From Dysidea avara (Eukaryota; Porifera; Demospongiae; Dictyoceratida; Dysideidae), in contig NC_089274.1 of NCBI RefSeq assembly GCF_963678975.1, positions 8,090,143 to 8,154,142 on the forward strand: DNA of 64,000 nucleotides, read 5' to 3'. The notes under the pieces were generated by a model. The model saw only the letters and a list, made by a program, of their open reading frames with translations. It searched no databases and was not told the origin of the DNA. The position numbers and the translations under genes are program-made. Positions 5,068-55,200 of this stretch are shown here, in pieces; positions within the stretch are counted from its first letter, which is position 1, and each line of letters begins with the position of its first letter.

Positions 5068-6185
5068 GGCCACACCAAGTCAAACCTTAGTTTCTGGTCA
5101 CCCGCCCGCATGGTAAACCTGGAACCCTAGTTTATGAGGACTATTATTAATATTACAGGTGCTTAAGTGCACGTGACCCAGCAAGACACTTATTTGTTAC
5201 TGCAAAAGATCGATATACTCTAATAGAGCAGTCAGGGATTCCAATAGAGCAGTCACACTACTCTTAACTCTAATATTAGGTATATATGCCATACTAATAA
5301 AATGTTTCTAACTATAGCTAGTTTTGTCCTTGATTATATAGCTGTTCAGATTATAACTGTTACTAATGCTTCTGTAACCAAAGTAATTTCAGTAGCATTA
5401 ACTACTAGTCCATGCAGATGGGTCATAGCTTTAACTTTATAATTCAAATGTAGTCCTCTAATGATTAGTCTAGTAACTTCAAATTCCTTATCACTGAACA
5501 CTACAGGGGTATGGAAAGCCAGCAACATTCGGTGAGCTTAAACTTAAACAGAACTAAAATTAGATTGGCAAGTAGAAACCCTTATAGTTTAAACATTTCC
5601 AGATGATCACTAAAAAACACTAGTCTGGAGCACTCAATGACTCAAAACTTTGACAGTTACTTTTCTCAAGGTTACTGAATAGAAGGCTGGAAACACATAG
5701 CTAGTGGGCTAAGACTTCACATTTGAATGAAGAATTTCTGATGTGAAAATAGAAGTTAAATTTCATTTTGGATCATGATCATTTGAACAACTTAGCTATA
5801 AGTCATAGTAATACTTTCCTGACATAGCTAATGAGACATTTATTCCACTTGGAAAGCATAAGTAGCTACATGAGCAAAACATTTCCTATATAGTATATTC
5901 TAAATAAATAAATATACTTAAATGCTATACATCAGTGCATAGCTAGCCATGATCCATCAACAACTTTCCTAGTGCATTTTTTGCCGAAGCACAACTACTT
6001 ATGTTGTTGGTTAAGTTTGACTAAAAACAAAATCAACATGAATTTGCTAAATTGAGCAAATAATAATACCATACAGTATATTGTCACAGCAGAGTCTATA
6101 GTCCTGAAGTCCTGATCATCCGCCCGCCCGCATCCATTTGTAGGCTTGGGAGTGACCAGAAACTAAGGTATGACTTGGAGTGGCC
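5068..6185. mobile_element. PIF/Harbinger-like non-autonomous element (1.1 kb)
   Basis: Terminal inverted repeats of roughly 40 bp run from GGCCACACCAAGTCA at the left to TGACTTGGAGTGGCC at the right, and both contain TTAGTTTCTGGTCAC on the inner side. Both ends are flanked by TTA (5065-5067 and 6186-6188), the usual three-base target duplication of PIF/Harbinger elements. There is no transposase reading frame inside. The interior carries one full and one partial copy of the dispersed CTCTAATAGAGCAGTCA motif (5204-5260). Confidence 0.7.
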
Positions 6186-6224
6186 TTAACTTGTGAACTC
6201 ATTCACCATGTTTTCTAATCAAGA

Positions 6225-7050
6225 CACACGATAGTGTGTCGTGCGGCCCAAGAAGCCGGCTGGCCACACCGTGAGTATATTAACAGGAAGAAAGAAAACG
6301 CAATTTTCACACCTATGTAGCTCTGTGATCCCTTATCCGATTGGAACCAAATTAGCTAGAGACGTGCCGCCCAGTTAGGGGAGTCTACATACCAAATTTG
6401 AAGAAAATCGGTCCAGCCATTTCCGAGATACGAGCGAACAAAATTTCATTTTAATTTCTTCGTTTTTTTCTTCTTCATCTTCATTTCGCACACTTCGCAA
6501 AATTCGCCATAAAACACGAATGCATGCTCGGATTGGGCTGAAATTTGACACACTTAAAGGGCTCATTAAGGCGGATCTCCGTACCAACTTTGGTAGGAAT
6601 CCGATGAACATTCACGGAGTTATTACCGATTATTTGCGTAAAATAAGGTCGAAGGTCTGTCACGCCTACAGGGTAAACCCCTTGGAGGAATCAGTTGAAA
6701 ATTGATATGTAGATGGAGCAACCATCGTAGGAGTGCCTTTTTGTGGTTTGAAAGGAATCGGGATAAAGACCATGGAGATATGACACAAAACCCAACCTGT
6801 GTCAAAATTACGCGATCGATTTTTATGAATAAAAAAACTATTAGTTTTCGTGTCTACCAGGAAAACCACTTAGAGCAATGAACTGAAAAATCAGTATGTA
6901 GCTGGAATAATCATCATAGAAAGTTCTTGCAGTAGTACAGAAGAATCGGATTACAAATCACTAAGTTATGATTCGAAAGGCAACTACGTGCAGCAAATGC
7001 GAGATCGAGATACTCTAATAGAACAGTCACCCTAATAAAGCATTCAGTTG
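6225..7050. repeat. Dispersed repeat family R2, longest copy
   Basis: About 800 bp of moderately GC-rich repeat with the core GTAGCTCTGTGATCCC and a CCAGCCATTTCCGAGATACG block. A diverged copy is at 51960-52400 and a short one at 1890-2010. The right end runs into the dispersed motif (about 7001-7035) and then directly into the 31-bp minisatellite. Short open frames on both strands look like chance. The transposon class is unknown. Confidence 0.55.
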
Positions 7051-7074
7051 CATGTATAATTTACACAGTTATAT

Positions 7075-7705
7075 TACATTGCAAGTTATTCTGTAGGGAA
7101 TTCAGCTACAAACAAGTCACCCTGTAGTCAGATCAGCTAGAAGAAGATACCTAATAGAGAGTTCAGCTACAAAGAAGCCATCACGTAGAGAGTTCAGCTC
7201 AAATAAATCACCCTGTAGAGAATTCAGCTACAAACAAATTGCCCTGTAGAGAGATCAGCTAGAAGAAGTTACCTTGTAGAGAGTTCAGTTACAAAGAAAC
7301 AATCATGCAAAGAGTTTAGCTGCAAACAAATCACCCAGTAGAAAGTTCTGCTATGAACAGATCACACTATAGAGAGTTCAGTTAGAAACAAGTCATCCTG
7401 TAGAGAGATCAGCTAGAAGAAGTCACATTGTAGAGAGTTCAGTTACAAAGAAACAATCATGCAAAGAGTTCAGCTACAAACAAATCACCCTGTAGAGAGT
7501 TCAGCTAGAAACAAGTCACCCTGTAGAGAGTTCAGCTAGAAACAAGTTACCCTGTAGAGAGTTCAGCTAGAAGGAGTTACATTGTAGAGAGTTCAGCTAC
7601 AAAGAAATCACCCTGTAGAGAGTTCAGCTACAAGCAAGTCATCCGGTAGAGAGATCAGCTAGAAGGATCACCTTGCAGAGAGGTTAGCTACAAAGAAATC
7701 ATCCT
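7075..7705 (+). repeat. Minisatellite, ~31-bp unit, about 20 units
   Basis: The unit reads roughly GAGTTCAGCTAGAAACAAGT followed by CACCCTGTAGA, with variants such as GAGATCAGCTAGAAGAAGT. Units are adjacent without spacers, which rules out a CRISPR-like layout. The single-copy sequence just upstream (AACAGTCACCCTAATAAAGC, about 7022-7041) resembles one unit and could be the seed of the array. Confidence 0.8.
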
Positions 7706-7810
7706 GCTTCATCTTTTCTTCTTCCTGTAGTAAAGAAAAAATGACAGGTTAAAAAGCCCTAAAGCCAGCCATAGGCCGGCTTTGGGGTATACAAATACAA
7801 AAGAAGTGAA

Positions 7811-8138
7811 ATCTAATCCAAAACAGCCAAGCTGTAAAAAAAGAGTGTGGCCCTGAGAAAGGCTATGGTGAAAAAAGATGTGAAATCCAAGGTGGCGGCC
7901 AAGAAATGGCTGTGATGGTAGGTTAATGGTAAAAATTTTAATAACAACAATTCAGGTGAATTTGGTGCCGCTTGGTCTTGGCACAAAATTCACCTGAATT
8001 GTCGTTATTAAAATTTTTACCATTAACCTACCATCACAGCCATTTCTTGGCCGCCACCTTGGATTTCACATCTTTTTTCACCATAGCCTTTCTCAGGGCC
8101 GCACTCTTTTTTTACAGCTTGGCTGTTTTGGATTAGAT
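7811..8138. mobile_element. Near-perfect hairpin (fold-back MITE), ~150-bp arms
   Basis: The left arm starts ATCTAATCCAAAACAGCC and the right arm ends with its exact complement. The arms stay complementary through GGTTAATGGTAAAAATTTTA to a short loop around 7965-7985, with very few mismatches. No protein is encoded. Such an inverted repeat, if transcribed, would fold into long double-stranded RNA. A second, truncated copy is at 8649-8836. Confidence 0.85.
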
Positions 8139-8648
8139 ATTATTAACATTTACATCATAGAAAGGACCCCAGCAGTGAAGAATAATACTCAGTTTAATAT
8201 ATAGCTATAGTGCATGAACATACCAATTTTTTTGTCAAGACTACAACTAACCTATATGCATACCGGAAATATGTAACTGAAGTCGGTCTGTAGCTATGTG
8301 GTAAACCATCATAGTTCAGATGGTTTAAAGTATAGATGCTGTACTCAGTATCTATGGCATCCACAATTAGCTATCTAGCTCAAGTACACTATATATGATA
8401 CAGTTTGCTCAGGATCAGTCTTGCTGGTGCACCCGGCTGATGCGGTTGGTGTGGTGGATAGGCTCCTGCCGGGTTCATGGAACTTTTTGATTCAAAAGGC
8501 TATGTTCAATGTGGTAATGCGCTGGCGGCCCGGGTAATGGCGACAATGAATCCATCGTCACAGGATATGGCAGAGTTCAGAGAGTTTGCTTCTCTACCCA
8601 CTGTTTGAGCAAAGCAAAGACTGTCTTTTATTTATAAAAATATATATT

Positions 8649-8836
8649 TAATCCAAAACAGCCAAGCTGTAAAAAAGTGTGCGGCCCTCAAAAAGGCTAT
8701 GGTGAAAAAGATATGAAATCCACAAGAAATGGCTGTGATGGTAGGTTAATGGTAAAATTTTAATAATGACAATTCAGGTGAATTTTTGTGCCGCTTGGTC
8801 TTGGCACATATTAAATTTTTTACCATTAACCTACCG
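8649..8836. mobile_element. Truncated second copy of the 7811-8138 hairpin element
   Basis: It begins TAATCCAAAACAGCCAAGC and follows the left arm and loop of the first copy, with small deletions. Only the innermost part of the right arm (TTTACCATTAACCTACC) remains. Between the two copies (8140-8648) I see no gene; a GC-richer block at 8400-8600 is unassigned. Confidence 0.75.
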
Positions 8837-8904
8837 TATATATGTGTATATATCATTGCATTTATTTAAATGCTGTACTCAGGAGTATTTGTATAAAAAA
8901 ATGA

Positions 8905-9102
8905 TAGATGCGGGTAGTCTCGCGTAGCACCCGATTCTCGTAATATATTCAGGTAGTTATCTGAGGAAAAGTCACGTGTTATATCAGGCAATACCTGAAT
9001 AGTATCACCGTGTATAGTTGCATGTTTGGGTAGCGCTGCTATTATTGCCATATTGAAGGATGCGGGTGTGGAGTAGCGCCTTGACTGTCTCTCCAGATGC
9101 AT
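8905..9102 (-). other. Coding-like fragment sharing a peptide motif with 24930-25143
   Basis: On the minus strand this reads an open frame of 78 codons containing DNYLNILRESGATRDYPHL. A similar nucleotide block (CTACGCGAGACTA and flanks) and a similar peptide DNYLMIMREPPGLRE occur on the plus strand at 24930-25143. The two may be remnants of one duplicated exon or of the coding part of an unknown element. I do not recognise the family. Confidence 0.3.
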
Positions 9103-9250
9103 TGGAGTTTAGTGGGATTGGAAGTTTATTGTGAGTTTAGTGTGATTCAAAGTGCTTGTGTGTTGTAAATGGCCTAAGTCAGTGTGCGAGACAATGTGTC
9201 ATCTTACTCTATGCTGTATCCTCGGCTGTATGTATCCATGCCCTGAAATA

Positions 9251-9297
9251 TGCCTGATCATAGCATAGATAGTATATTCTACTATCTATGATCATAG
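9251..9297. repeat. Short AT-rich hairpin
   Basis: GATCATAGCATAGATAGTA pairs with TACTATCTATGATC across a small loop. A related ATAGATAATG word sits at 9313 and in the palindrome at 25502-25530. The stretch 9300-11960 contains only short open frames without recognisable domains and looks intergenic. Confidence 0.45.
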
Positions 9298-11963
9298 ATA
9301 GGTATCACCATAGATAATGTATGCGTTCCTAATGGATTGGAAACGCCTGTTAAATTATTTTCCTATCCTAGCGCCAATACATTGGGAAATTTGTTGAGTG
9401 GCTGTTTGGCTTTCTCTTGCTTGTTTGAAGGTCAATTCGAAGGTGTGGACATTCCTTTTACATTGTTTATTGTGTTGCGTTGTGTACTGAACAAGAACAC
9501 AGCGTGTATGTGGGTACTGGGAGAAATATTGTTTGCGACAGGTGACAATGGCAGGTACGCAGCTAATAATTCAACAGCAGTACTATTAGCCAACTTCTCG
9601 TCACCGCATTTACACAACCAAAGAAATGTGTGATGCATTGAAATAAATTTTAAGCGAATCCCTGTGAAGGTTCCCTTATGTGAATCCCTGTGAAGGTGTA
9701 AGTGTAGTTTTGGCTTTTGTCAAAGCCGGGTTGGTAAAAGACAATTACCCAAAGGAGGTACGATGTGGTTTATGTGAGCTACAGGGTATATAGAGAGCCT
9801 ATTTTTGGAGTGTAATGCTAAGAACTATGTACCAATCACAAGGTTTTCTTACACTAAATTCAGTGGTGTAATTCAATCCCAATGGTTTGACAGTGGTCTA
9901 TTGGAGACTTTGTCACATGATGAATAATTTCAAGTATGAAATGGAGGGTAAGCAGCCACCAGAGAAGACAGTACTGCTAATAACAAAGGAAGGACTGCCC
10001 AGGGAGTCTTAATTATAATCCTTCATATAACATTAAAATATTCTTTCCACAATTTAAAAATTCAAGAATGCAATTAGCATTAATTCTTTATGATGGTGCT
10101 GATTTCATGAGCAATTACCCTATAATCCATACTGAACTGTAATCACTTGCAAGTCCTTGTAGGTGTTTTGTCATAATTATTTAAGTTGGGTCCTAATACA
10201 TAGTTAGGGTAAGCTGTTTGACATGCAGTGATCTATTTAATGGCAGTGTAGCCAGATATATATATATACACTGGTAAGTGTGTTACAGCATGTAACATGC
10301 TGTGGTTTATGTAGGTGGATTGTGGTACTTCAGTGGGTGCGAGTAAGGAAAATGAATGAAGGTATCAGTCATCAGGTATGACATATATAAAATTAACAAT
10401 GTGTATCAGTCCCCTGTCACTATCTGGCATTTGCCTGCAAGCTGTGACATTTGATCATTGATTTCTACAAAGCAATTATCATACATAGCAATAAAATTAA
10501 TTCCTCTTTAAAATATTTTAAAGTTTGTTTAGTAACTTAACCGGATGGGCTGTTAAGCTGTAGGCCAACTGTGGACCTACAGCTGGCCCACAGGTTAACA
10601 GGCCTGTAGGCCCACAAGCCTACAGCTGGCCTGGTTTCCTGAAATTGGATATAGGAAAACCACATGTCTACGTGTAGTATGATTGTATGTTTGTCTGTCT
10701 ACATCATGTTTGTGAACAAGTTTGAAAAGTTTCAACTTTAAAGGAGATTTTGTTCAATGAATGAGCACCCGTATGCATATAAAAGTTAGCTTTCTTACAC
10801 TTAGTCACTCTCATTGTGATAACTTGAATGAGGATGGCTGATCTCTGAGAACATTGAATGGGGCTTTCCTTGTGTGCTTTAACTAGAAATGGTGGGTGGA
10901 CACACCCATCACAACTTGTAATGAACCGTTTACTGGCTAAAGAATTTGCTTTAGAAAACATGTCATGTAGTACACCATTGCTGTGTTTGGAAACTACTTG
11001 AGGCGGCCACTATAGAGAAGTGGTAAGAAGGTGGCCACTACATACAGAGAGGTGGTTAAGGAGGTGGCTGCTGAGTGAGTCATTCATGTCAATGTCTGTG
11101 AATACATCTCAGATCCAGCTGCCAAGTAAATTTAGGTATTAGGTGCATGTGTGGTGGCTACAGCTCTTCTATGCAAACATGAGTTCACTTTTCGTTGAGA
11201 TTGTGTTGTTACTACTACACTACTCTGCTTGTAAAAGTAATTTAACAGTAATGGTACTTTGCATTGAAGGTTTAGATGACTTAATATTTTCAACATTTAA
11301 AATTTACTGTAACGGGACTGTGTATTTTGCAACATGCACATTTTACTTTGCATGTACAGTGTATAAGGTTTGTTTGTATCTACATTAGATGTAAAATTAT
11401 TCTGATGGGACTGCAAAGACGAGATGCTTATACGTATTGAGCTAGGTAAGCTACATACATGCAGTGGTTACAGATATATATATATATATATATATGTATA
11501 TTTCTACTTATAGGAGAAACAGAAAATGGTGATTCAACATTGCTGTATACATCTGAAAACAATTATAGTGCTACTTTGACATTTACGGTGTGAATGTTGT
11601 GTCTGTATTGTGTTATTGTAAACTGTTTATACATCGTGATTGTTTTTATTCCTCACATTAGTCATAAGTCAGTACATTATGTTTATAAGTACACAGTAAG
11701 GATCCAAAGGCAGTGTACGTGCTTACTGGAGATCCAGGCCTAAGGCTTGTTTGGAGACCTAGTATGGAAACCACATGATGAAGTGTCAACTGATATCACT
11801 GATGCCCTTTCTACATGTGTCAGCATAAAAGTGCCATGCTCCATGGCCGTGCATGGGTAGTCAGTGGTAGTATGTGGCATTGTTGTGACTATGGAAAGGT
11901 GGAATGATGTGATTGTTGCACCACAAAGCTAAGCAATTTACTAGCAACATACCAAATGTACAA

Positions 11964-12208
11964 ATGTGACCAGATTTGCAAAAGAGGGTCTTCCACACAC
12001 ATCCAGTTTGCCAACTTTGGCAATTCATATCTTTAGAATGGAAAGAGCTATAGACTTGAAATTTGGTCAGAAGTGAGCACCAACATAGCTGAATATACAT
12101 GGTGATAGTTTCAGAATAATAATTATGTTACTTGAACACTAAGTTATGGTCTCCCAAGTTTACGGAATTGGATGTGTGGAAGACCCTTTTCCCTAAATCT
12201 GGTCACAA
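11964..12208. mobile_element. MITE with ~40-bp terminal inverted repeats
   Basis: The left end TGTGACCAGATTTGC and the right end AAATCTGGTCACA are inverted copies, and the pairing continues through GGGTCTTCCACACA on the left and TGTGTGGAAGACCC on the right. The length is about 245 bp with no reading frame. I could not assign a superfamily because no clear target duplication is visible. Confidence 0.7.
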
Positions 12209-12209
12209 A

Positions 12210-14165
12210 TAGTGTTCTTTATAACTCTTTCACAAAGATTTCTGAAATAATGTTGAAGATGCACACAATTACGCATACAACTACTGTTGTAAATTACGCT
12301 ACTCTTGAAAATTAATACCTTATAGCTAACTATATAACAGATCTAGGTACGGATAAACTCAGGGGAAGTATCATCATTTCAATGCATATAAAAATTGTAA
12401 TACAGATATTTACACTATCCGTATCCTGCAGCTGGTCTTTCAGTTTCAGTATAAGGCTGGTAGTTTATACAGGAGCATGTATGGATTATTAATCAACTGG
12501 TTTAAAGCATTTTTTTTAACCTTACATTTTTGGTTATTAATTTTATTTAATTAAAAGTATACCTCCCCTAGCAGCATACTCTTTGCATACTTGCATAAAG
12601 TTAGGCTGAAACGATGGATGACTCATTGTAATGCATGACTTATACTGATATGTAATTCTATTATAGCTAGATAATAATAGACCGGTATGTCACTGACCTG
12701 TTTGCAATAGAATAGACTCAAATAAGCACATTTCTTCAAGCAAGAGTTCATAATAATTATAGCATATAGTAAGACCCTCTTCTAATATCATGAACTCTTG
12801 TATGACATTTAATGTAACTTTGTTTACTCTTTCTATATATGCAAATATGCATGTTTTGATTTACATACATGGATATATAGACTCAATCAATATCATACAT
12901 GAAGTGATACAAGCAATCAGTGAAACGATTGTTTTATTAGGAAGTTTAAGCTAAAATACATAATGGCACAGATCCCAGATTATCCCCAGACACGTATGGA
13001 CTCTTCTATAATTATAACCATTAATTTCTTTAACAGGTATATTATAATAATAATTGTATATAGACCATAATTATAATAGTACAGTTTGTATAACAATGCA
13101 TTATAGTTTGCAACTACTGTGGCCGTGCTTGCAACAGCACACGTAAAGAGTTATAGGTTATAAAGCTATATAATTATATATATAGGCAGCAATAAACCCA
13201 TGCATGCATGGTTACTACAATATACAATTACACACTCAGTGTTGCAATATTGTGTTTAAGATACATATGAAAAATGAAGTTCACCATCAATAACAATATA
13301 ATATATATAGTAAAGATCTGCCAACAGCTTCAGAATGCATGCATTATAATGCATAATATCTTATGATAAAATAATACCATATTCACTTAAGTGATTACAT
13401 TAAGGTTATAAGCATATGTACTATACACTCTGCATATTATATAGTTACAGTGCGTGATATACTTGTACACAGTACATGCTATTGAACTTGCAATCACTCT
13501 TATAAAACACACATAATATTATCTGCCCACATTGTTGTTCCAGTATATTGCAACATAAGAGATCTATTATATTTGAAACAGTACAACTACGGCATGTATT
13601 GGATTAATGTGCATCAACATAAATACACTTTTTATTACATGTACACTGCATATTATGTACACACAGAATGCTTAAATATGCAACATTGTAACTGCTGTAT
13701 TGCTGTTTGATGCAGTGCTGCTGTATATAAGAGTCCCTTTCGATGTCTCCTTAGAATGACCTGTTAGTTATATTTAATGGCATACTCATCTGCACTGTAT
13801 ATAAACTATAGCTTATCTATGTAACAAGCATCGATGGCCTGCATCACTAAACTGTTGAAATCCCATCATGTCACAATATTTTTTAATCTATTAAATAAAA
13901 TCATGTGGGTCATAAACATTCACCACCATGAATATAAACTTGCAGTTACTACATATGAACACAATACATGTACAGACATACATGCACAGTACAGGACATA
14001 TTATTTAAAATTGGACTTTCAAAACGGAAACATCACACAGGATTTTAAAATTATGAGTTGTCTAAATTATATGTGCAGCCCGTTGGGTTAACTAGCTACT
14101 TTTCTCTGTACTGTAACTATGTTACAACAATGGTTACATAGTATCTAGTAATCATGCATTAAAAC
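12210..14165. other. AT-rich intergenic DNA, nothing recognised
   Basis: The sequence is very AT-rich, with many TATATA and TATAATTA words. Open frames are short, lack known motifs and have no plausible splice chain. I see no RNA gene. Confidence 0.5.
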
Positions 14166-14169
14166 CAAA

Positions 14170-15004
14170 ACACCTACTCGGGGAATTGGAAGCAGTGGAA
14201 ATGGAAACTGGAAACAGAAAATAGAAACCAGAAAAGGTCAAATCTTCATTACATGTATACACTAGGGTAAACCCATTGCTTAGTTGCCACCTCTCAAAGA
14301 CCACCTCGTTACAAAGACCATCTCTGTACAAAGACCACATTTTAATTAGGTATCAAAGATGCCAAAAGGCATACTTAATTACCTATAATAACCACCTCTT
14401 TACAAAAACTGAATGTAATAATGAATTTGTACAATTACATATATTCATCATGATCCCAACCCATTACTGTAGCCAGGTATACTCCAGGACCTTTACTATA
14501 ATGTGTAAAATATGTACGCCCCAGAAAATTAATGGTGTATCTCCTCTTTATGACCCCATGGTAAGGTCAATATTATCCTCCATATTTTGGTCTGATCAGA
14601 CCATCTGTACCATAAATCAGTTTGTAATGGATATTCTCATAAAGTGTTGTAAACTATAACTGTATCAAAGAAAATGCAGTCTCAAAAGATGACCATAAGT
14701 ACCTATCATTTTCTAGGTGTGTTAGTGAACAAGTCATACAATACATTTTTGTAGCTTAGCTATGAAATCTTAAGAAGTGGTCTTTGTAAAGAGGTGGTTA
14801 TTGTAAGGAGGTAGTCACTGTAATGTTCTAATTATAGTGTGCCTTTGTCATATTGTGACCTTGTACAGAGGTGGTTTTTGTAATGAGGCGGTCTTTGGGA
14901 GGTGGACACTAAGTAAGTGTTTTACCCTAATATACATGTCATGAAGATTTGACTTTTTCTCTTTTCCATTTCCATTGCATACAGTTTATTCTTCCCCTGG
15001 GTGA
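14170..15004. mobile_element. TIR element with ~130-bp inverted ends
   Basis: The left end (about 14190-14330) contains GGAAATGGAAACTGG, TCAAATCTTCATTACATG, AGGGTAAA and repeated CAAAGACCACCTC words. The right end (about 14850-14980) holds the reverse complement of each in order. Between them are more AAAGACCACCTC-like words in both orientations. There is no transposase frame. Exact ends are uncertain by about 20 bp. Confidence 0.65.
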
Positions 15005-15836
15005 AATGGTAACAAACAAGGACATGAAACTAACTAGTAACCTAATTTCTAGTTAGCTAACTTTTACAAAAAGTAAGTTGCATGGGATATAAGAAATTAG
15101 TTAATATTTCTACCCCATATACCAAGTTTTTACTTCTGGAATCAATATTTTTTTCACAAAAGTTTCAGGTTATATGTATGCCAGCCAATTTTACTTGGTA
15201 AACAAATGGCACATATACTTGCTGATGACTGTCTTACACATCCTAAAATGGAAATAAAGTCTATCTGCTTCAGTTTATGAGAAGTGCCTCCATGCAGATA
15301 ATATCATATACATCAGACTAGTTAGTCCAAAAGATAATATGTTTTAATTCTTGAGTATATACATTTCTCACAGAGTTTGGGATAGCAAGATAACTAGTCT
15401 ATTGTGGCCACGTGTACACAACTACTGTGGAGTTGTGTTCGCAACTGTAGTCACACCAACTCAGCATTTGCTTTTGTAATGAAACTCAGTACTTGTCATG
15501 CAGATCTTATAACATGCAAATATAAAATTTTTGGATGTATATATATACCCATTCACTTGACTGGACTTTTGGATTACTGGACTAATACTGGGCTGGATTA
15601 CTAGAATAGACTACTGGACTCACGTTAAGTTTGCTCAAGTACCTTCTCAACTATTATGCATCATTAGCATGCATGTACACCACATTCTCAGTCTTGCATA
15701 TTAGAGGTACATACAAACTGTGGTCTTGTCTATTCAACAGTACGAGTGCATAATTAAGAGTTTGAACTCACTAAATGTACATAGTTTTTCACTGATATGT
15801 ACAGCCTTACCCGCAAGCCTATCAGATAGAGTGAGC

Positions 15837-15838
<2 letters not shown>

Positions 15839-15928
<90 letters not shown>

Positions 15929-15968
15929 ATGTGTGTGTGTGTGTGTGTGCATGCGTGTGCATGTGTGT
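15839..15968. repeat. (GT)n microsatellite, ~125 bp
   Basis: A nearly pure GT run, broken only by a few CA/GC changes near the 3' end. Long Val-Cys or Thr-His open frames across it are artefacts of the repeat. It lies directly upstream of a SINE. Confidence 0.95.
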
Positions 15969-15971
15969 ATT

Positions 15972-16370
15972 ACCAGGCCAAGTGGCTAGAGCATCAGCTT
16001 GGTGAAAATTAAGGTTCTAGGTTTGATGCCTGGTTACACCAATTGATATTTTGGCATTTCCTTGAGCAAGAAATTTTACTCACATTACTCCAGTCTACTC
16101 AGCTGTTCAATGGGGACTTGGTGGCCTGGTGTCACTGGGGAAGCAGCTCACCCAGCTGTAACATCAATGGGTATCTGGTAAACTGGGGAAGTAAATGCCA
16201 ACTATCCATGTATCACATAGTGGGTGAAAGTCCATATGGGACTTAAGGCGCCCATACCTTCACCTGCGAGACATGGTACAACCTTCTACAGGTTACTAGT
16301 CCTGTGAAAGTCTTTGAGATACGTGTAGGTAGTGCATCAAAACTGTTTTATGGGATGTTTGGGCTTGACT
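15972..16370 (+). mobile_element. tRNA-derived SINE
   Basis: The head resembles a pol III tRNA promoter: an A-box-like CCAAGTGGCTAGAGC near 15977 and a B-box-like GGTTTGATGCC near 16018, about 30 bp apart. It is not a tRNA gene, because there is no matching acceptor stem. A non-tRNA body of about 300 bp follows, starting with a TTGAGCAAGAAATTTTACTC block. A related head fragment occurs on the minus strand at 34141-34205. Confidence 0.65.
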
Positions 16371-17700: not shown

Positions 17701-17844
17701 CTAAGCAAAAGTAAGCAATGGCACTATAATATGGTGTAGTATAACATTGCAATAAAGATTGTTCAAAGCTTCCTCTTTTTCATGGTCCATTCATATGCTA
17801 AGGGATACTTTGAGAACTAAATGTCCAGACTCCGGATTTTACAG

Positions 17845-18560: not shown

Positions 18561-18562
18561 TA

Positions 18563-21095: not shown

Positions 21096-21412
21096 CAGCA
21101 GTGGAGGAAGTAGTTGATATGAGGGGGGGCTGGGCTGACCCAGACTTATTTCTATAGTTTGGTAAAGTGAGACCAAAAAAAAAAAAAAAAAAAAAAAGGT
21201 CGCAACCAACTGACAAGAGCTTTCCACCTCACCAGCTACCATTTCTAGCTGATAAACTACATAAAAATCCTTACATATAGTGACTGCCCTATTAGAGTAT
21301 CTCGATCTTTATCACGGTTTTCAGCCCCACTCCAAGAAAGATAATTTCGGTGTGATATCATTCTGAGGGGGAGCTTCAGCCCCCTAGCCCCCCCTCCCTT
21401 TCCGCTGCCCAT
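21096..21412. mobile_element. hAT-like MITE with A-run and dispersed motif
   Basis: The element is flanked by the direct repeat GGTTTTAAG (21087-21095 and 21413-21421), an 8-9-bp duplication typical of hAT elements. The ends are imperfect inverted repeats (GCAGTGGAGGAAG against GCAGCGGAAAGGGA). Inside are an A-run of about 26 (21174-21199), a G-rich block mirrored by a C-rich block, and the dispersed motif TGACTGCCCTATTAGAG at 21281. Confidence 0.65.
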
Positions 21413-21839
21413 GGTTTTAAGTTAGTAAGGTCTGAAAGTTTAGTACTAGAGTCTAAATGCTAATGCAAAATGATTGTGAGCCATCCCCTCCAACCAATGC
21501 ATGGGCAAAAGCAACCTTCTCCTTCCCTTTGTGGAGGAGTCATATATCTTTTAATTGATTCAGAATTGCTAAACTTTCTCAGGCCAACATCAAGTGATCA
21601 CTTAAGAAGTACACTGTATCCATATTATGACCATTTATTACAAACTCACTCAAGTCAAATGAGCTGCTACACAGGCTTTCAGTAGTAGGTCCCTAGGGGG
21701 ATAGTGAATAATAATAAATAAATAAAACTGTTACCCAGCGCCTATTTGTGCCCCTCCCCTTTCCACTCATGGATCTTTCAATAGTTTAAATCAAAGTGCC
21801 TCAAAATGTATCGGAAGCAATCTGAGAAAGTCTAAAATA

Positions 21840-23460: not shown

Positions 23461-23949
23461 TTGAATAAGCTCCAAGTTTCATTTTTATAGCACACCGGTG
23501 TCACAGTGATATATGTTTCCCAGGGTAACGTGTTTCCCGCACACATATCCCTAGGGATCCGTGTTTCCCCGCACACATATCACTAGGGATCCGTGTTTCC
23601 CACTAAAAGCTGTCAGTGATATGTGTTTCCCGTAGCGATTTTTTAAATATTTCACCGCACACACATATTCCTAGGGATTCGTGTTTCCCCGCACATATAT
23701 CACCAGGGATCCGTGTTTCCCACTAAGATATAGCCATCGTGCAGTAACTCCAAGATCCTATATGGCCAGTTGCAAACAGTACGCGATCCAACCATTCAGT
23801 AGATATTATTGCTATCTAGCTAATAGACACCCATGCATGCATATTGCATGCAGCTGTATATAGCTATAGTTAGCTAACTAGCTATATAGCTACTATATAA
23901 GCTATACAATAATTATACTATAGCTAGCTATACTAATAATGATAACTAT

Positions 23950-24630
23950 AATAGTCATTTAAAATAAACTTTGTTGCTCTTCTCTGGACCTGCTCAATAA
24001 GTGTGATGTCCTTGACAGGGGCGGATCTAGGATTTATAAAAGGGGGGGGGGGGGGGGGCTAACTCAAGGTACTAATCTCTTGGGTAGAGAGCATGCTCAT
24101 GCCCCCCAGGAAATTTTGAAAAATAAATGTTAAAATACTGCAATTTGGAGACATTCCCACATAAAATTCATAATATTTTCTGCCTGTAGATTATATATAC
24201 TGCCTTTAGATTATAACAGAACCAACTATATGCTTCCAGTGAATGTTCTATTAGAGTAGTTAGCTGACTGCTCTATTAAAGTATCTCGATCTTGTACACC
24301 TCCAGGTCCTTGTTGCATAAACTTTAGCATATAAATCCACTGATAATACCTTGGAAAGATGTTAATAAGGTGGTTTTATATTATTGGTGATCATATAATT
24401 ATGCTAAGACAAAATTTCATTATAATTCTCAGCATCATATTGATCAAGTAAAGCTATAAATATGAAGGGGGGGCTTCAGCCCCCAAAGCTCCCCCCTTGA
24501 ATCCGCCCCTGCTTGATATGGTTATAGGTTTCCAAATCACTGAACAGCATATAACTTGCGGTCTCACTAAGGAAATATACAAAGTTCTTTTGGCTGTCAC
24601 TGTTTGATGCTTGCTATCCTATGCTAACAC
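23950..24630 (-). mobile_element. LINE reverse transcriptase fragment interrupted by a MITE
   Basis: On the minus strand, 24630-24512 encodes RTLYISLVRPQVICCSVIW and on to KPITIS. 24015-23950 continues DITLIEQVQRRATKFI. Both belong to the C-terminal part of a CR1/L2-like polymerase. Removing the MITE and one copy of its five-base duplication restores a continuous LINE reading, so the MITE inserted later. Confidence 0.7.
24016..24511. mobile_element. MITE with CAGGGGCGGATC termini and 5-bp target duplication
   Basis: It starts CAGGGGCGGATCTAGG and ends GAATCCGCCCCTG. The direct repeat CTTGA flanks it (24011-24015 and 24512-24516), and the interrupted LINE frame independently confirms the duplication. 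G-run and C-run blocks lie near the ends. The dispersed motif occurs twice inside (24246-24259, 24265-24295). It belongs with 27570-28354 to one superfamily with five-base duplications. Confidence 0.8.
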
Positions 24631-24929
24631 TACGTAGCTACGTAGCACATGACTTTATAAAGGGGAAACATATTACCCGGGGAAACACATATCACTGTGA
24701 CTTGTAGGTCGCTAGCGAGTTAGTGATATGTGTGCGGGGAAACACGGATCCCTAGGGATAAGTGTGCGGGAAACACGTTACCCGGGGAAACATATATCAC
24801 TGTGACACCGGTCTGGCGATTATTTCACTCACCAGAACTCAAGCAGAGAACTTAAGCAGAGAACTTAAGCAGAGAACTTGGTGGCTATCCAGTCAGGAAC
24901 GTATTTAATCAGTTATTAGTGCTGACATC

Positions 24930-27569: not shown

Positions 27570-28354
27570 CAGGGGCGTAGGGAGGGGGGGTTCCGGGGGG
27601 TTCAGGAACCCCCCCCCCCCTGTAAAATTTAGACTTCTGCAAGCAGGATCCTAACACACCATTTAGTGTGGCAGGACAAAATGAGTGAGCAATATAGTAT
27701 AATGGCACAGCACAACAATTGATAAAACTTACATTCATCTCTCAGGGAAGGATTTACAGAGGTAACATGAGCCCTCTTCAAAACTTGTTTAAAAGATCGA
27801 TATACTCTAATAGAGCAGTCAGGTATATACTCTAATAGAGCATGCATGTGAATATCCATGTCCATATGAAGTTTTTCAGACATTCCAACATTAAATGCAA
27901 AACTTAGCATGACCTTATACTGCTATAGCTTTGGTGTGCAGTGTTTAAAGATATAGAGCTCCAGTAATTTATCACTTGTGTTATGCAAAATGAATTCATG
28001 CTATGCATATTTGTATAGTTATATTGTTTTGATTGTCATTTGTATCAGTGGATTCATAGCTCCTATACCACAGTGAGATATAACCATCACTTACAGATTA
28101 CTATATGTGTCTCTATGTGTTATGCTGTCTGTTTCCACTAGGTGACTTTATCTAGTACTACCTTCATCCCAGGGGCACTTAATGCATCATAATTAATGTA
28201 CTTTTTGCATAAAATATAGCAATTTGCTGAGTTTTGATTTCTTAAAATATTGAAAGTCTCTCAGCGGCTGGGGGCTGTGCCCCCAGACCCCTGCTTCTAG
28301 TAACTCAATGCTGGTGCTGGAACCCCCCTTCAAAAAGTCCTGGCTACGCCCCTG
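27570..28354. mobile_element. MITE with CAGGGGCGTAG termini and 5-bp target duplication
   Basis: It starts CAGGGGCGTAGGGAGG and ends CTGGCTACGCCCCTG, flanked by the direct repeat GTGCC (27565-27569 and 28355-28359). G-rich and C-rich blocks lie inside each end. Two copies of the dispersed motif are at 27791-27846. It is 785 bp with no transposase. Confidence 0.8.
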
Positions 28355-29810: not shown

Positions 29811-45298
<15,488 letters not shown>

Positions 45299-46225
45299 TT
45301 TATAACTAATTTCTGTATAAAATTATGTGCACTATTTATATGAATTCACCTTATCAACTACTAGCAACCTAGTTACCACCGCTGGGCATGTGAATTGTGT
45401 GTGCATTGACTAAAATGCTCAGTGTTTATGTAATAGTTGTAGCACATTAGAGAGGAAAGTGGCCATAATACCTATTGTCTAAAAACAATATTTTATGCAG
45501 TCATTTGTCTACTCAGTCACCAAAACATTGTGTAATTTGGTAGGCCACACTAAGGGCAGTATGTCAACAGTAACCACTGACCTAGTGTTAGAAATGTGAA
45601 CAGTTACCAAGACTAGCAAAGGTAGAATTTGGCTCATCCTTTTTTTTAAAGAGATTGAGTGTAGAGTTTGTATTGCTCTACTTCATGATCATGTTATTCT
45701 AAATTTAGCAACAATCACTGTTGAAGTGCTCAAAGAAGAGTCTCCCAAGTTATGCGTCTGCTTATCTGATAAGATCAATGATGGTATATATGCGCTTCTC
45801 ATCTTAAGGAGAAACTTTATAATCAAAAGCTTTTTACTGCTGGCCTCTGTGAAATAATTAAATATCAAAGAATGGTTTAGTATAATTGCTATTAAGAATA
45901 GAATTCATATCATAGTAAAGTTTCCTACTTATGTAGACTAAATTCACTAGTGCTGTAGTGTGAAAATGCTACATTCTTCATGTACTTCTCAGGCAGATTA
46001 CAAATACTGTAATTCACTTTATTTTCATGATAAAATTGTTTTCGTATGATTTACGTGAATGACTACTCTATTAGAGTAGTTTGATCTTGTGTGAAAATTT
46101 TTGTACAAGCCTATTTTTAGCCATATATTCTTGGAAGTGCACAATAACACATAACTGACTATATAACTGAACCAATATTAGCCACATGTGATACATTGGT
46201 GATATCGCTAACTACTATAGCAATT
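45299..46225. other. Intergenic spacer between convergent ABCF2 and RTK genes
   Basis: The two genes end toward each other here. The spacer is AT-rich and contains a small repeat with the dispersed motif (46060-46092) within AAAATTTT-type flanks. No additional gene seen. Confidence 0.6.
45985..46120. mobile_element. Small repeat carrying the dispersed motif, copy 1
   Basis: TTTCATGATAAAATTGTTTT, GATTTACGTGAATGACTACT, CTATTAGAG and GTGTGAAAATTTTTGT occur in the same order at 48465-48605 (RTK intron). The family is AT-rich with AAAATTTTC-type ends and has no coding capacity. Confidence 0.5.
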
Positions 46226-49200
46226 TCAGATGATTACAGATGAATCATATTCAGTAGCAGTTGTAAATTTCTCAATATGCTTCAGTATTTCTGCAAACGT
46301 TGGTCTTTCCTCTGATTCAATCCTAGTACACTGGCTCACAAGATCAGCCAATGCCTTACAACGTTCAGCAGGGCTACAAAAATAACACATTTTCAAATTC
46401 AGTAACACTGATAGTTGATAATATTACCAGCTGAGCTGTAGCGTCCCATCACTGGCCATTTCCACAATGTCATGAATTTGAAGTCCCTCATATGGCGTCC
46501 CTCATATGGCGTTTCTCCAAATGTCATAATTTCCCATACTAGTACACCATACGACCTGCATATATATATATATAAAGAATATTAATTACATTAATGTATC
46601 CAGAATCCACTCATAAACCAAAATTTATACTATATACACATCATTTATTCATCAATGGTAGAGACACATTTCACTAACTATAAACAGCAATTATAATACA
46701 GCACCTCCTGTTCTCAAAATGATCGCATAAATGCTGCAATATTACATAATATAGCTAGTCAATATAAAAATTTATTTTTTTCTGTATTTTTCACATTTTA
46801 GTTACACATTCTGAGTCTGACTACCCTTCTCACAAGCTCCTACTGAGTGGGATAGCATTCACAGAATATAAAAGTGTAACTTGTACTGATGCATAATATT
46901 AGAAGTAGTATTGCAATAATTCTGGCTGTGCCAATTCTAAGTATCATGGTACACATCAAGCACCATGCATGGCTCCTGAAAACAGAATCCATATTAATGA
47001 GATTCTGCTGTCACTACTCACTCATCTAAGCAAGCAGTATGATAACACTATTAATTGTGATTCTATATTCACAACACACAATTACACTTTTAATCATTCT
47101 ATTCATTGTCTCACCACACATCAGATGCTGAAGTAAACTTCCCATACAACAGTGACTCTGGAGCAAGCCACCTTACTGGTAGTACTGCACTAGTGACAAC
47201 CTTGTAATAATCCTTTTCATGCACACCACGAGCCAAACCAAAATCTGATAATTTTGCTGTGAAATTCTCACCAACTATAAGAAAAATATACTGTAAAATT
47301 ATAAGTATATATACATATATCCAGTACAATGCTGGGTACTAGATAATGGAAAATTTTTAAAAGGAGGTAGGGATTGATATGAGTACACATGCTACAAAAC
47401 ATAAGGAAACAAGCTCAAAGATAATACAGCTGAAATGAAAATGATGCAAAACAAAAAGTTAAGAAACAAGTCGAACAAGACTAACTTAGATAGCTACTTG
47501 CTAAAAACATAGATAGTATATTCTAAAAATGAGACACATTTTAATGCCCAGTCTCATTTCATGTTAGCCAAAAGTAGGCATTAAAAATATGTCTCACTTT
47601 AGTAAGTAGCCATCTAATCTTGTTCGACTTGTTTCTTTACTTTCTCTTGTGTAGATCAGCTGTAGTATTTTTGAGTTTGTTTCCTTAAATTTTGTAGCAT
47701 GTGTATTATATCAATCCCCACTTCCTTTTGAAATTTTTAAATTGCTAGTTTGTTTACTTTTTACGTCTAGCTAGCTATGTTACACATTCACACTTCGTTA
47801 AAATCACGAGTAAGGCAGTGACTTGTGCCACAACTATCAAATATCCTGCAGGAAGAATAAGGAAGGCCAATAAATGATGAAAACAAACAGCATGGTGCAG
47901 TGGAAAAACATAATCAGAACAACAGATTTGTGAATCTGCCAACATTACCTTGGCTGTGTGAAATTTCTGGAGCCATACACCTGTAGGTGGCAGGCAGGCA
48001 AGCAAACAATGCAGGTGAATTTCAAATTTTTTTATAACCCACTGTATATCAAAACATTAGACTTTTGCTTCATTTAACCAAGGTACAGAGCAGTACTAAT
48101 GCATTCCAGGTGGTTCATTATTGCAAAGCTGTTTGTTAAGTGCACGAAGCCATATGATTTCTTATCAATCCCCACTTATTAAGTACTACCGTACTTTTAA
48201 TACAAGATACTCAAAAACACAACTACTGTATGAAGCCTCCATAATCTGGCACGTATTCATTGGTGACAAAAGTTGCATCAGATTAGTAAAGATGGTCGGT
48301 AATAGAGACTTTGTTGTATATAACTATGCACAGAATTTCAGTTGCCTTTTATTCGGGCTATAGTGGTGATTATTAAACAATACAGTCAAGATATTCTAAT
48401 TGAGCAACCATGCAGTTCTCACAAATTCTCTATGAACAGTAGCTTCTGTAATTTGCTTTATTATTGTGCAAAAACAATTTTTGTGATAAAAATTTTCATG
48501 TAGAAATATTTTCATATGATTTATGTGAATGACTGCTCTATTAGAGTAATTCGATCTAGTGTAAAAATTTTCGTGTAAGAAATTTTCATGCAAGTTTTGC
48601 ATACAAACATTATTTTACAACGAAAACAAGCAAATTATGGTATGTTGCTGTGGCAGCAGAACACATTCAACAATAGAACATTATCATGTACAGACCTCAT
48701 ACTATAGACTAGGGACAATACAGGATTTGAAACTACTAATGCATTACCTAAAAAACATCATGATACAGTGGTATATTGCAATAATAGAAAGCAGTGCATA
48801 TATGTCAGATTTTCTCAAAGTCATACAGAAGATCTTCTCTTTTTCTAACTCTGTACACATCTGTGGTAATACTAATTCAATAATGTGGTTGTAAATTGGC
48901 ATCTGCATTTCAATAATTATGTCAAACACAGCTATGTATGTAATAGTCAAGTTGATACACCCAATATAATTTTATTGTGATATACAATGTATCACATTAA
49001 TGCCTGTATTACTGCCTTGAGTATATTTCTCAATATTAAAGGCATTTACTAAGCAACCTGTTAACAGATTTCAAGGAACCACAGAGAAAAAAAGCATCTT
49101 TCTTGCAGTGTTAAGTGTTTAATTACTGTATATAGCATGCCTCAGCTGGACCTCACCGGCTACAGAACTACCACTGCAAAAGTACTAAAGCGCTATCCAT

Positions 49201-52200
49201 GTCAAAGTAGTCAACAAACTATATAATTATGAAACTGGTTAGTCTAACTACAAGTACATAAAATACAAATTTTAAAAATCGTCTATTACCATATGTGGCT
49301 TGGCAGGCAGTTAAATGAATGTTTACTGTAGCCTGTGTCTGATGTATAGCTGGCATAAGGATCTGGTCATAAGGAATATAGGATAGGACCTCCAGCTACC
49401 ACCAAAAAATAGCTACTACTTACTCAGACAATTTCTTGCTGCTACATCACGATGAACATATTTGTTAGTTGTAAGATATTCCAAACCACTAGCAATCTGT
49501 TTATGAAAAACATATAATTTGATGAATATATGTACATAGACTAGATACACTACACAGGTAAACATACAACACAACATGCTTCTATTCCTTACATCATTTG
49601 CAATGTTGAAAGCTACACTGTCTGTGATTACACTTGTATCGTCATCATTAGTAGGTCTATAGGTCAAACAATGATGGGAGCTAGCAATGTTATAATAGTA
49701 AGGAGACACAGAGAACTACTATACAGTATGTTGAGGCTTCTCACAGTGGAATAGTGTCTCAAGATATTACACTGTTACCGTGTTGCCTCGAATTATGGTC
49801 GGTCTCGTATAAACTGTTTAGTCACCGGGGGTATACAGCATCATAACAAAATAAACGCTGGGTCTCAAATAAACATCTAGTGCAGTCAAGAATTCCGGGT
49901 GGTGTTATAAATGATGAAGTAAAGAACATTTTACGGAACATTTTATGTAATTCCTTTTAAGCTTGAATCTGTGAAATATGCTGAGGGAAACATCAAGGAG
50001 AGTACAACATCAAGGTATGAAGTAGACTCGTGAATGCTGATCAGGTATATAAACGCCGGTCTCGTAGAGTCACTGGTCTTGTTTAGTAACCGGGATAAAA
50101 AGTTGCTTGAAAGAAACAAACACCCAGGCTGTAATTTGAGACAGTACGGTAAACAGACTCATTGTTTACTAAGTTAAGCAGTGTTACAGTATAAATTAAT
50201 GTCAACACAACTTCGATTGCTAATTAGAATTCTTCAAATTATACCACAGAAATAAGTCAATTGTTTAAAGGCTTTGATTTTTATTTTGATATAAAAGAGG
50301 AAAACTGCTATGCATGTACATGCAGACACTATGATAGTATTATATTATTTTGCACACTTGTCACCATTGTCCTTGACTTCTATTCAGACTAAGATGATGT
50401 ACCATCTTTCCTTGGTTAAACACCACACCTTCAATAGTAGCTGCACTGAAGTGGTCCCATAATCAATTTCAAAAAATAAGGGCTTAAACATCATTTTTTG
50501 AACATCAAGAGGGGGTTGAGTTTGAATAGTTGCCACATTGATTTTTGGAATGAAGGTAATAAATGCCATGACGCTTAACCAAGTGAATATGGTATAAGAT
50601 AAAACCCTTAAACTGAGATACAACAATAAAACCAAATTATAGCAACTAAACTATTACATGTCACACTTTAAGTCTACTAACTTATTGGCTTGTAAGAACC
50701 ACTTGAGGTCACCATACTGCATTAGTTCTAGTATCATTAATGGAGCACCATCACTAGTGGCCTCACAATGTCCTATAGTGATCACAACATGTACTCAGTG
50801 ATCATGTAGTGAGGACACATACCAAGTAAGCTGACTATGTTGGGATGAACAAATCTTTTCATTAAGTTAACTTCTTCCAAAAATCTTGAAATATCTTTTG
50901 GATTTCTACTAGTCAATGTCTTTACTGCCACCAGGACTGATCCTTGGATATCACAAATGTCCTACATATAAAAGAAAAAACCACATTAACAATACATGTG
51001 TAAAAGTGGCCAGCTGAGCGAATGGCTAGGGTTGCTTTATCACTGAGAAAGTTTATCATCATCACCATCAGAAATTAATCACTATGCATGCGTGCAGAGG
51101 ACAAAAGATATCCACATCATTTCCATGATGGTTTTGCCATGTTGTGGCAGATATCAAATTCCAACTTAATAACCAATGTATTCATAAGTCATTACATAAG
51201 TGCATATGCAGGGTCTTCCCTAAAGAGCGGTGCAGCACCACTCTACTTTACTCAAACTTCTTTTGATGTGCTAAAAGAAATGTATATTATTAACAAATTG
51301 ACTGATTTCGGAAGCAAATTGACAGTTTTACTGCTCTGCTGGGGAAAGCTCTGATATGTACATTAATACTTCATCTAGCACAATCCTATTGTTGTCCACG
51401 TTAAGCCTAGAACTACCACTATCCAACACATAAGTCTGAAAACTTAGACACATCCTAATAACAGACTAAAAGTAATGATAAAGAGATGCTCAGTAATGTG
51501 TAAACATTGTAGGTCAGACATACACAACTGGTATAGATACGTACCTTGGCTGACATTAGTAGAACTTTTCCAAATTGACCTTCTCCAATGTCACGCATGT
51601 AAATAAGTTTAGCTCTATCATAACTCCAATCCTATCAGTTAAATTAAGTGCATAAAATGTCCAAGTATATTTTCTGATGAGAACTTACATCTTGTCTTGA
51701 ACAGTTAAAATTATAGTAGTCTTGCAGAGGAGCTGACATGCCATACTTCAGTGTGCTATCACCATTTGTGTCCTTTTGTAAATCTGACATTTCCTATTGC
51801 CACAAAACAATGAAAACATACACACCGTACACAGAAAAAAATTAATGGACAAGCCAACAAATATTTTTTTTAAATATGGAAGTTTTGAAATCAATAGCAA
51901 ATCACATGTACAAAAATGGTCACTTTTAGATCAATTGTTTTTTTTTGTTTTTTTTTTTTGAAATCAAGGCACATGGTAGTGTGTTGTGTGGCCAAGGAAG
52001 CAGGAATGCACACTCACAAATATATTAATAGAGAAAGACTTTTTCATGCTCACTTAGCCCAGTGGTCCGTGGTCTCTCTGAACTACTTTAGCAGTGGAAT
52101 TGCAAGTAGGGCAAGCTACACGCCAAATTTAAACCCATTCCTTTGACAATATACGTCACCAAAATTTTTACATTATTCTTCTTTATGTGGCATAGATTTC

Positions 52201-55200
52201 TTCTTTTTCCATACACTTTGCAACAATCACTCAATTGCTATGAGATATGGTGCTCCATACACTACCAAGTTTGGCAAAAATCCAACAAAGGTACAAACAC
52301 TTATCCATACTAAAAATGGTTTTGTCACAGCTACAAGGTAAACCAGTTATCAGAATAGTGTAAAATTGGGTCAAATAGTCTAATAGAACAGTCTCCCAGA
52401 GTTATTTACCTTTACTTCAGTTACTACTAATAGGGCCACAGTGCTGTACTATTGAAGGTGTATTACTACTATTAAACATTGGTACATAACTTGTAATAAC
52501 TTGCCGGAATTTTTAATGGAAATCAAACATATTGTTACTGGTTACATTTTTCATTAACTTTATTTTACTATTAAACTGCTATCTGAAATTTTGGATACTG
52601 CACAACTATCCTTGAATGCACAAGGGGCAAAGAGATCAACATCACTTTAGAAGATGGAGAGACTTGACAAAGAACAGGCCTTACTAATAAAAGGCATGTA
52701 TATTATATTGTAAGGTTGTAATGCTATTTGACAGTACAGTCATATTTAAAGAGTACTGCTGTATGATGTTAATAATAGTACTACAGTACTCCATTATCAA
52801 TTTGGCTTGCTATTTGGCACATGCTAAAAGAGTCCCAAATGCAAATTTTGGTACCTGTTTACAAGTAGATCCAATAAATTGTGAAGAGTGGCAAACAAAT
52901 AATTAGAAATTTGTTGTCAAGCCTATATACTGTGTCCACAAGTAGATACTGTGTTTATAAAGATGGGATGCTGCAACTGGTTCATCAACAAGGGAACTTT
53001 AATACACACAATAGCTAATTACACTGTGGCCAAGGCTGTGGTGATGGTGAACGATAATGTGGTGTCAGCCCAGAACAAAGTGGCATTCATGACATGCAGT
53101 GATGTTAAAGCATTTAATGGTGCCACTACTGAAGTACCAAATTTTGAATACTTGAATAATGATTGGTATTGGTTAAAGTGATATTGCAGGACCTATACAA
53201 TTACATTAGTGGTAATTTGATGCATGTAAAATCTTACTATATTTTGTTGCACATCTTTATTAGTTGGATGTAGCACCTCATACTAAAACACCACAAAGTG
53301 AAAAATCAATGTTGTATAGTATACAGGTCTCACTGGATTGGCAACTCCAACTGTAGTCTTGTCAATCTCATCTTCCTATACATAATAAAATGGAACAGTC
53401 ATATCAAGGAATGTATGTGTAGTATAATACAAAAAAATGTCACTGTGTACCTGATCAATGGTGAAATTAGTACTGACCACTGTCTCCATACCCACTTCAT
53501 ACTGCAAGTGTCTATCAACAGAATTTAAATCTTTAACAATGTATGACAAATTTAGAACTGTGAGGGAAAACATATAGGAAACTCTATGAGAGGTAAAAAG
53601 TGCATATCCGTGTCATTAACATAAATCTCAAGTGCATTGTACTAATCAATAGCTATGTCTGTCACTTACGACTGTTTGTGGTGATAATGGTGATAATGGT
53701 GATAATAGAATACTGTCACAATCAACATCACCACTACCATACTCATGATAACAGCACAAACAGAGATCACAATTCCAAAAATAGCACCAGCTGACAATGA
53801 TGACTCATCATCAGTTGAGTCAGTAGCAACAGTGATATTATAAGTATCATTCATCATTGACATGAACAAATCCAAGTATCTTGTTAAAATTGTTGTAGAG
53901 CTGAGGTTGAATAACTGATCAGGAGCTGGAATAATTTCTAAATTACAATAAGACAATAATCACAGTCAAAGGATATATTATTAGAAATACATGTCTGGGA
54001 ACCAAAATACTACAGATGTATAAACTAAACCAAACTATTCCACTGGCAAATTGAATGACTAAACAATTTATTAGTTGGTATTATGGTCGCACATAATTAT
54101 CACTATAAGTGGTGATTATTAATTAACACCTAAAATACTGTATACACGCATGAGAGAAAGCAATTAACATTTGCATGTAGGTATAAGGATTATAACACAG
54201 TGATCTTCTGAAGAATAAGACCACTGAACATTAAACATTTACACTAGACATATAGCTGTACTGTATGTGTATAATTTTCCTTGGGGAATTATTCACCCCC
54301 TGGGAACATCGGCATACCGTCTGCCCAGCAACAATAAATAAATAAATAATACCAGGAGTTCATGCTTATGGGCTTTACCAGAGCTAAACGACATAACATT
54401 TTGTCAAAAGGAAAAGATGACAAATTCATATTTCGTCAGCTTTGACGAATTAACTGTTGACGAAAATCAAGAAATCATATATCTAAACATGTACTTATAT
54501 AGAGACACATGTTGATGTTTGATGAATATTTGTTGACGAATTTAACTGATTCATTAAATTCATCAACTTTTTCTTTTGTCAAAATTTCCTGTCATACAGA
54601 TAACCAAAAAACACATTACAGTGTGTTGCTAATGTGTTTAGTTACTGTAAGGCTTCCATTGTTTCTTAATGTGTTTATTATTGAAATTTGTGTCACATAT
54701 TAGCATGTCACACCACCTATTATGTCACACTAGTCATTCAGTGCTTGAAATAAACAGGCAGAAACGTAAGACATAGTGTCTGAACAAAAGCATAATTGAT
54801 CAGACACTTGTACTAGCTTGCTCGGACATCAACAATTTTTTTTTACCTTGAAACACTGTCAAGTCTGATGTATTTTGTCTGGATGAATTTTTACCAATAG
54901 TGAGTACATTATGATAGGACATTATGCCCAACGAAAATGGAACATGCTCGGACAAACACCAGTTTTGGTCAGAAAATGTCAGATGTCTGACCACTATTTC
55001 AAGCACTGGTCATTTGATTTACATACGAAGTAACAATGAGGAAGTGTATATATATATGTATATGTATATATGGATGTGAGTGTGCTGTTCTTTTACCATA
55101 AATGTCATCAATACTTGCATTAATTATCAGTTCCTCTAGTAGGCAGTCTCCTCCTATACCAAATGTTATCACAGAAGCTATAGAAATTGGTTCCAATAGG

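Follow-up and report, generated by a model that had tools for sequence, protein, structure and literature searches.

The window analysed here, a 64-kb stretch of DNA from the sponge Dysidea avara (C3:8090143-8154142), has an animal gene content, including TRAF/MATH and ALK/LTK-like genes, and carries eight good copies of a 27-bp motif, GATCGANATACTCTAATAGARCAGTCA, with weaker ones besides. An open frame at 55745-56974 matched ALK/LTK receptors over their extracellular part (E 1.6e-22), and no known RNA family or tRNA was found in the window. The motif forms part of a module in which GATCGANA is followed by TACTCTAATAGARCAGTCA, present in one to four copies at irregular spacing. The full 27-mer was mapped with 0-6 mismatches to 5208-5234 (+, exact; locus A), 7003-7029 (+, two mismatches; B), 21281-21307 (-, two; C), 24265-24291 (-, two; D), 27795-27821 (+, exact; E), 44521-44547 (-, six; F), 46060-46086 (-, four; G) and 48530-48556 (-, two; H); the G copy contains a perfect 17-bp palindrome. 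An earlier sequence-only reading had noted that the motif is often doubled, and a second unit indeed follows the first in five of the eight full copies, at 5237-5255 (+, 21 bp past the first core), 7028-7046 (+, decayed, 17-bp spacing), 24240-24258 (-, 25-bp spacing), 27828-27846 (+, 25-bp spacing) and 44490-44508 (-, 31-bp spacing). All ten loci that it listed are real, but those at 37549 and 52376 are weak, with only the 19-bp core recognizable (position weight matrix [PWM] scores of 21.0 and 20.3, respectively; locus I, 37546-37564, +; locus J, 52376-52394, +). A further weak core was found with the PWM at 48392-48410 (+). One frame of the motif is open over nine codons; a coding reading on this basis was dropped by eye because second units often lie in another frame.

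Chance was ruled out as the origin of the motif by shuffles of the window and by a reversed control in the whole genome (550.8 Mb, 108 contigs). With up to three mismatches, GATCGATATACTCTAATAG had seven matches in the window, as against a mean of 0.01 and a maximum of 1 in 100 dinucleotide shuffles. With up to one mismatch, CTCTAATAGAG had 16, near-palindromic copies being scored on both strands, as against a shuffle mean of 1.12 (largest 5). The PWM for the 19-bp core, which was trained on eight of the sites that it recovered, gave 15 window sites scoring at least 18; the mean of 60 Markov shuffles was 0.017 (largest 1). In the genome, the 27-mer with up to three mismatches occurred 50,026 times (24,980 on the forward and 25,046 on the reverse strand), or about once per 11 kb, and the exact 19-mer 5,761 times, whereas neither reversed pattern occurred at all; the motif is thus far from unenriched. 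In 20 stretches of 10 kb placed evenly without regard to motif content, 14 contained the motif, with 27 copies in all (up to six mismatches, tandem units counted).

Our searches of the open-access literature retrieved no description of the motif and none of four 14-letter pieces of it. No IMG/VR contig contained a 19-mer of the core, two window proteins had no relative among viral contigs, and a plasmid search with carrier E gave no match. Three contigs with a variant of the 5' 19-mer carried it inside one related phage frame without a copy of the core, and seven bacterial contigs matched an 18-mer in differing contexts; both sets were read as chance.

Within the window, most copies lie in repeats with recognizable ends, and the TTA, 8-bp and 5-bp elements named in the sequence-only reading were all recovered. 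Carrier A (5068-6185, +), which we take to be Harbinger-like, has the terminal inverted repeat GGCCACACCAAGTCAA, inverted ends of 35 bp (94%) and a TTA target site duplication (TSD). Carrier C (21097-21413, -) is presumably hAT-like, with the 8-bp TSD GTTTTAAG, and carriers D (24016-24511, -) and E (27570-28354, +) are CAGGGGCG elements with the 5-bp TSDs CTTGA and GTGCC, respectively. Carrier F (44078-44705, -) has 77-bp inverted ends (83%) and no clear TSD. Carrier B (6211-7780, +) is a repeat of approximately 1.5 kb with a 31-bp minisatellite; its ends are not settled, and neither are those of the repeat shared by G and H. The 7.0-kb and 52.4-kb loci (B and J) sit in copies of one family, and in the latter the motif has decayed to eight mismatches, so that there is no sign that the host preserves single copies.

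Several other structures were observed in the window. Inverted ends of 95 bp (97%) at 23491-24815 enclose carrier D in what is apparently a nested insertion. An inverted repeat at 7811-8138 has 159-bp arms that are 98% complementary around a 10-base spacer. The element at 39095-42501, which we take to be DIRS-like, has inverted termini and a frame weakly matching tyrosine recombinases. A broken coding region at 3089-4935, with a CGCCCCTG terminus at 4935, weakly matched DUF659 (E 0.13); apart from that match, its hAT label is our assumption. Its left end was looked for and not found, and a PWM scan located no motif near it.

Conservation stops abruptly at the edges of the motif. The pairwise identity of the eight aligned copies was 0.865 inside the 27 bp (0.79 when the two weak loci were added) versus 0.273 and 0.288 in the left and right 80-bp flanks, respectively. 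BLAST among the 1.4-kb surroundings of the window loci returned matches mostly limited to the motif and second unit; G and H have an 89-bp repeat in common (84%), and weak flank matches joined C with D (62 bp, 71%) and E with G (60 bp, 72%). When 56 flank comparisons were each set against 100 shuffles, z exceeded 2 in six, but only G/H exceeded all shuffles; D-E (z 2.4) and B-C (z 2.9) were both under their own shuffle maxima. We extended the comparison to 61 sequences totalling 357,740 bases, 40 of which were picked for an exact motif, so that family sizes are biased. The 99 loci in this sample (up to five mismatches, tandem units collapsed) fell into 22 clusters by single-linkage flank BLAST and into 29 flank-distinct components when the alignment was required to span the motif. 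Eight of these components have multiple members, the largest including both arms of the family F1 described below, and two of the eight draw on elements that partly coincide, each taking the motif of opposite position; the other 21 are single loci, some of which may be distant relatives, so that the figure of 29 does not give the number of independent origins. The reading of all carriers as one repeat family is ruled out by this flank comparison.

Carriers outside the window extend the range of target duplications. The family F1, with ends TAGGGACCC, has 8-bp TSDs in four copies inspected by eye, L011, L016, L017 and L020 (AAGTAGTG, TCCATTAG, TAGAGGGG and TCAGCAAC), and L036 has the 8-bp TSD GTTTATAT. 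L011-L020 contain a hAT-type family with the terminal inverted repeat TAGGGACCCGCCGATTATGC and two facing motifs, often across an 81-bp span. A TA duplication was found at L035, whose end bases match at 15 of 16 positions, and a weaker TA pair at L018 (12/16). Three further copies of carrier E have 5-bp TSDs by eye, and partial copies of the carrier A family were found in L065 (left end only, after TTA) and L020 (right end only, before TAA). Terminal inverted repeats with TSDs, as expected of inverted-repeat DNA transposons or MITEs, were therefore present in A, C, D, E, F1, L036 and L035. The 8-bp TSD of the hAT superfamily was present in C, F1 and L036, all non-coding; hAT, Harbinger and pogo are labels that we assume from the ends and duplications of the carriers. 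The eight carriers with end pairs span 190-1,118 bp and are too short to encode a transposase. By their TSDs (8 bp, 5 bp, TTA or TA), the carriers with defined ends belong to different transposon classes. The sequence-only claim of a core inside differing families is supported in this respect; the two loci of the carrier B family belong together, and C, D and E may be distant kin. A Helitron or Helentron identity was rejected for the seven carriers with target duplications.

The units within a locus differ in composition. In the 357,740 bases, GATC was present in 90 of 129 first units and in 8 of 56 second units, and same-strand units, one to four per locus, were spaced by 17-37 bp; both counts score copies of one family repeatedly. 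We also used one representative from each of the 25 components (of 29) with a member not picked for the exact motif, the other four having exact-motif members only. A second unit lay within 60 bp in 14 of the 25 representatives, as compared with 32 of 5,000 random stretches, at spacings of 17 (three), 21 (five), 24, 25 (three), 27 and 37 bp. Among these representatives, drawn from L011-L050 and the window, 11 of 14 spacings fall at 17, 21 or 25 bp, in steps of four. F1, L036 and the TTA element all have the 21-bp arrangement, an indication from a few families that a block of approximately 48 bp was copied across classes.

Substitutions in the 25 representatives, whose loci were selected at up to five mismatches, were distributed very unevenly over the 27 positions (none of 20,000 simulations was as uneven). 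Positions 6, 15, 16, 18, 20, 23 and 27 were invariant, whereas positions 5 (G 15, A 8, C 2), 7 (G 12, T 9, A 4) and 21 (G 17, A 7, T 1) were tolerant; the variation at position 5 may be explained by its C-G context. The frequent letters at the three tolerant positions were found in all combinations, and such free combination together with uneven change would be as in a degenerate binding site. The unevenness fell to p 0.07 once positions 4, 5, 7, 8 and 21 were removed, and that of the 19-bp core changed from p 0.001 to p 0.44 without position 21; the argument for a degenerate binding site accordingly depends on a small number of positions. Selection on the motif is only suggested by this pattern.

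We propose, with a probability of roughly 0.45, that the motif marks a cis-acting module of 30-50 bp that was copied between DNA transposons and is probably kept through the binding of a host protein. In the families examined, the module moves along with its carriers. Judged from sequence comparison, its copying between transposon classes appears well supported, since the 27 bp are nearly identical in unrelated surroundings and recurrent point mutation could not credibly have arrived at these 27 bp each time. On this reading, a block of approximately 30-50 bp would have entered, by copying, numerous unrelated DNA transposons within one genome and increased in number as they did. The gaps left by transposon excision can be repaired from other templates, and such repair is a plausible route of copying. 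A host DNA-binding protein, for example a chromatin opener or a germ-line factor, would then bind the core and help the carriers to be mobilised or tolerated, and the module would be retained for that reason. Against this proposal count the dependence of the unevenness on few positions, the decayed copy at locus J, the small size of the carriers and the lack of a motif near the hAT-like coding remnant. A host factor site or a transposon enhancer, as suggested in the sequence-only reading, and passive hitch-hiking may each account for the motif.

The leading alternative is passive dispersal of a minisatellite-like unit, short tandem pieces of which would enter transposon interiors by recombination or repair and hitch-hike there with no benefit to the carrier. 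Loci with one to four units would suit such a unit, as would the exact 27-bp head-to-tail pairs at L024, L030, L043 and L045, the 31-bp minisatellite beside the carrier B motif, the lack of significant unevenness in the core without position 21, and the spread of satellite monomers with transposons described for molluscs in the portion of PMC5139131 available. Against it, most second units lack GATCGANA, the spacing has no single period, change is uneven over the whole 27 bp, and no locus had more than four units in the 357,740 bases. A satellite or minisatellite of constant period was rejected on the unit numbers and spacings in this sample, and the GATC-poor later units with their variable spacing are more like a cluster of sites than the product of slippage. 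We consider passive dispersal somewhat doubtful. The 31-bp minisatellite of carrier B occupies 7091-7706 with approximately 20 units and adjoins the motif at 7003; some of its units (CCTAATAGAGAGTTCAGC) look like the motif, and the 7003 copy may have been the seed of the array.

A wider reading is one that we hold rather doubtful: transposons of at least four TSD classes in one animal would share, through copying among themselves, a common regulatory part, which would draw in a single host protein and be needed for their success. Such a part would be an accessory module of the whole transposon community instead of one family.

Descent with constraint, in which many carriers would be distant kin of one old hAT-like element that has diverged in its ends and interior and kept the module as its sole recognizable remnant, is favoured by carriers C, D and E (at 21.1, 24.0 and 27.6 kb). 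By eye, these have a G/C-rich subterminal palindrome in a common layout; their motif points inward at 106-225 bp from the end, and C and D are joined by the weak alignment upstream. The motif also lies nearer its own upstream end in six of the eight carriers with end pairs. The two TA elements depart from this layout, however, and a general inward position of the motif near the upstream end was rejected for that reason. The different TSDs point to different transposases, and among the eight window loci only the flanks of G and H stood out from all shuffles. Common descent is improbable in our view.

Least probable by far, and hardly credible, is an independent micro-transposon of 27-81 bp inserting into other transposons, for which the sharp edges and the F1 inverted pairs (81-bp outer span) would speak, since only one of 120 flank-matched sites lacked the full motif, and that site kept its tail, no target duplication was seen by eye at the module edges of the eight window copies, and the F1 pair lies at the middle of a longer palindrome. 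The 120 distinct sites were found with both flanks of the 99 loci, a sample that favours motif-bearing copies; searches with a single flank for motif-less copies were dominated by minisatellites and nested repeats. For carrier E, the 40 candidates scored out of 1501 comprised the window copy and 39 further long matches (92-98%), all of which spanned the motif as judged by match ranges, in which small gaps are invisible. The very small element of its own that the sequence-only reading had entertained is thus unlikely, and an independent mobile element, with its own ends, target duplications and empty sites, was rejected.

The description of the motif as palindrome-centred proved misleading, as pairing is not kept across carriers and most of the RNA folds were worse than those of shuffles. 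Of the 25 representatives, 16, 22, 21, 24 and 24 can form the respective five pairs of CTCTA-A-TAGAG, the value of 16 being that of the outer pair (positions 11 and 21), and no compensating double change was found at any of the five pairs in this set. RNA folds of the eight window modules gave z values of -3.9 (46 kb) and -2.1 (44 kb) and were positive in the other six. An RNA hairpin or hairpin-forming repeat was rejected on the lack of compensatory change and on a single fold of eight with z below -3.

Several known systems resemble the D. avara module in part. In bivalves, Cg170, BIV160 and the pearl elements involve satellite monomers embedded in transposons, Cg170 arrays being parts of Helitrons and pearl elements carrying up to six monomers, as described in the available text of PMC5139131. 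Like the D. avara unit, these are short repeat units with conserved motifs that occur within transposons, singly or several at a time, and have abrupt edges; unlike them, it is 27 bp long, is irregularly spaced and lies in inverted-repeat elements of several classes. A defined short site spread by transposons is also known from p53 sites in zebrafish EnSpmN6 (PMC3485254) and from CTCF sites (PMC7156512), according to the parts of these papers at hand; the proteins are known there, whereas here 27 bp are near-identical across classes and the host factor is putative. The non-autonomous DINE-1, HINE and Helentron elements, in the portion of PMC4067079 available, also combine a conserved core with palindromes and internal tandem repeats. 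As described there, they prefer to insert at TT, and they have inverted repeats in subterminal position and a palindrome close to the 3' end, whereas the present carriers have terminal inverted repeats, target duplications and an internal palindrome. The hairpin repeats of sponge mitochondrial DNA (PMC2800124, in part) are likewise short palindromic repeats dispersed in one genome, although they are mitochondrial and hairpin-forming, while the present motif is nuclear and its pairing is not kept. A block of such size common to inverted-repeat elements of several classes is absent from these comparator descriptions, as far as the available excerpts extend.

Different transposon families are generally expected to have little in common, each depending on ends to which its own transposase binds. 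The presence of one nearly identical block of 27 bp in elements of different transposases would mean an exchange of sequence among families, and some factor may favour the block. The motif could help to find a host factor whose action extends to many transposons simultaneously. For repeat annotation, it is a warning that searches seeded with the motif will merge unrelated families. In L028 (1526-3200), the exact 19-mer stands 308 bp upstream of the first ATG of an open frame with a DDE_1 transposase domain, a purely positional relation.
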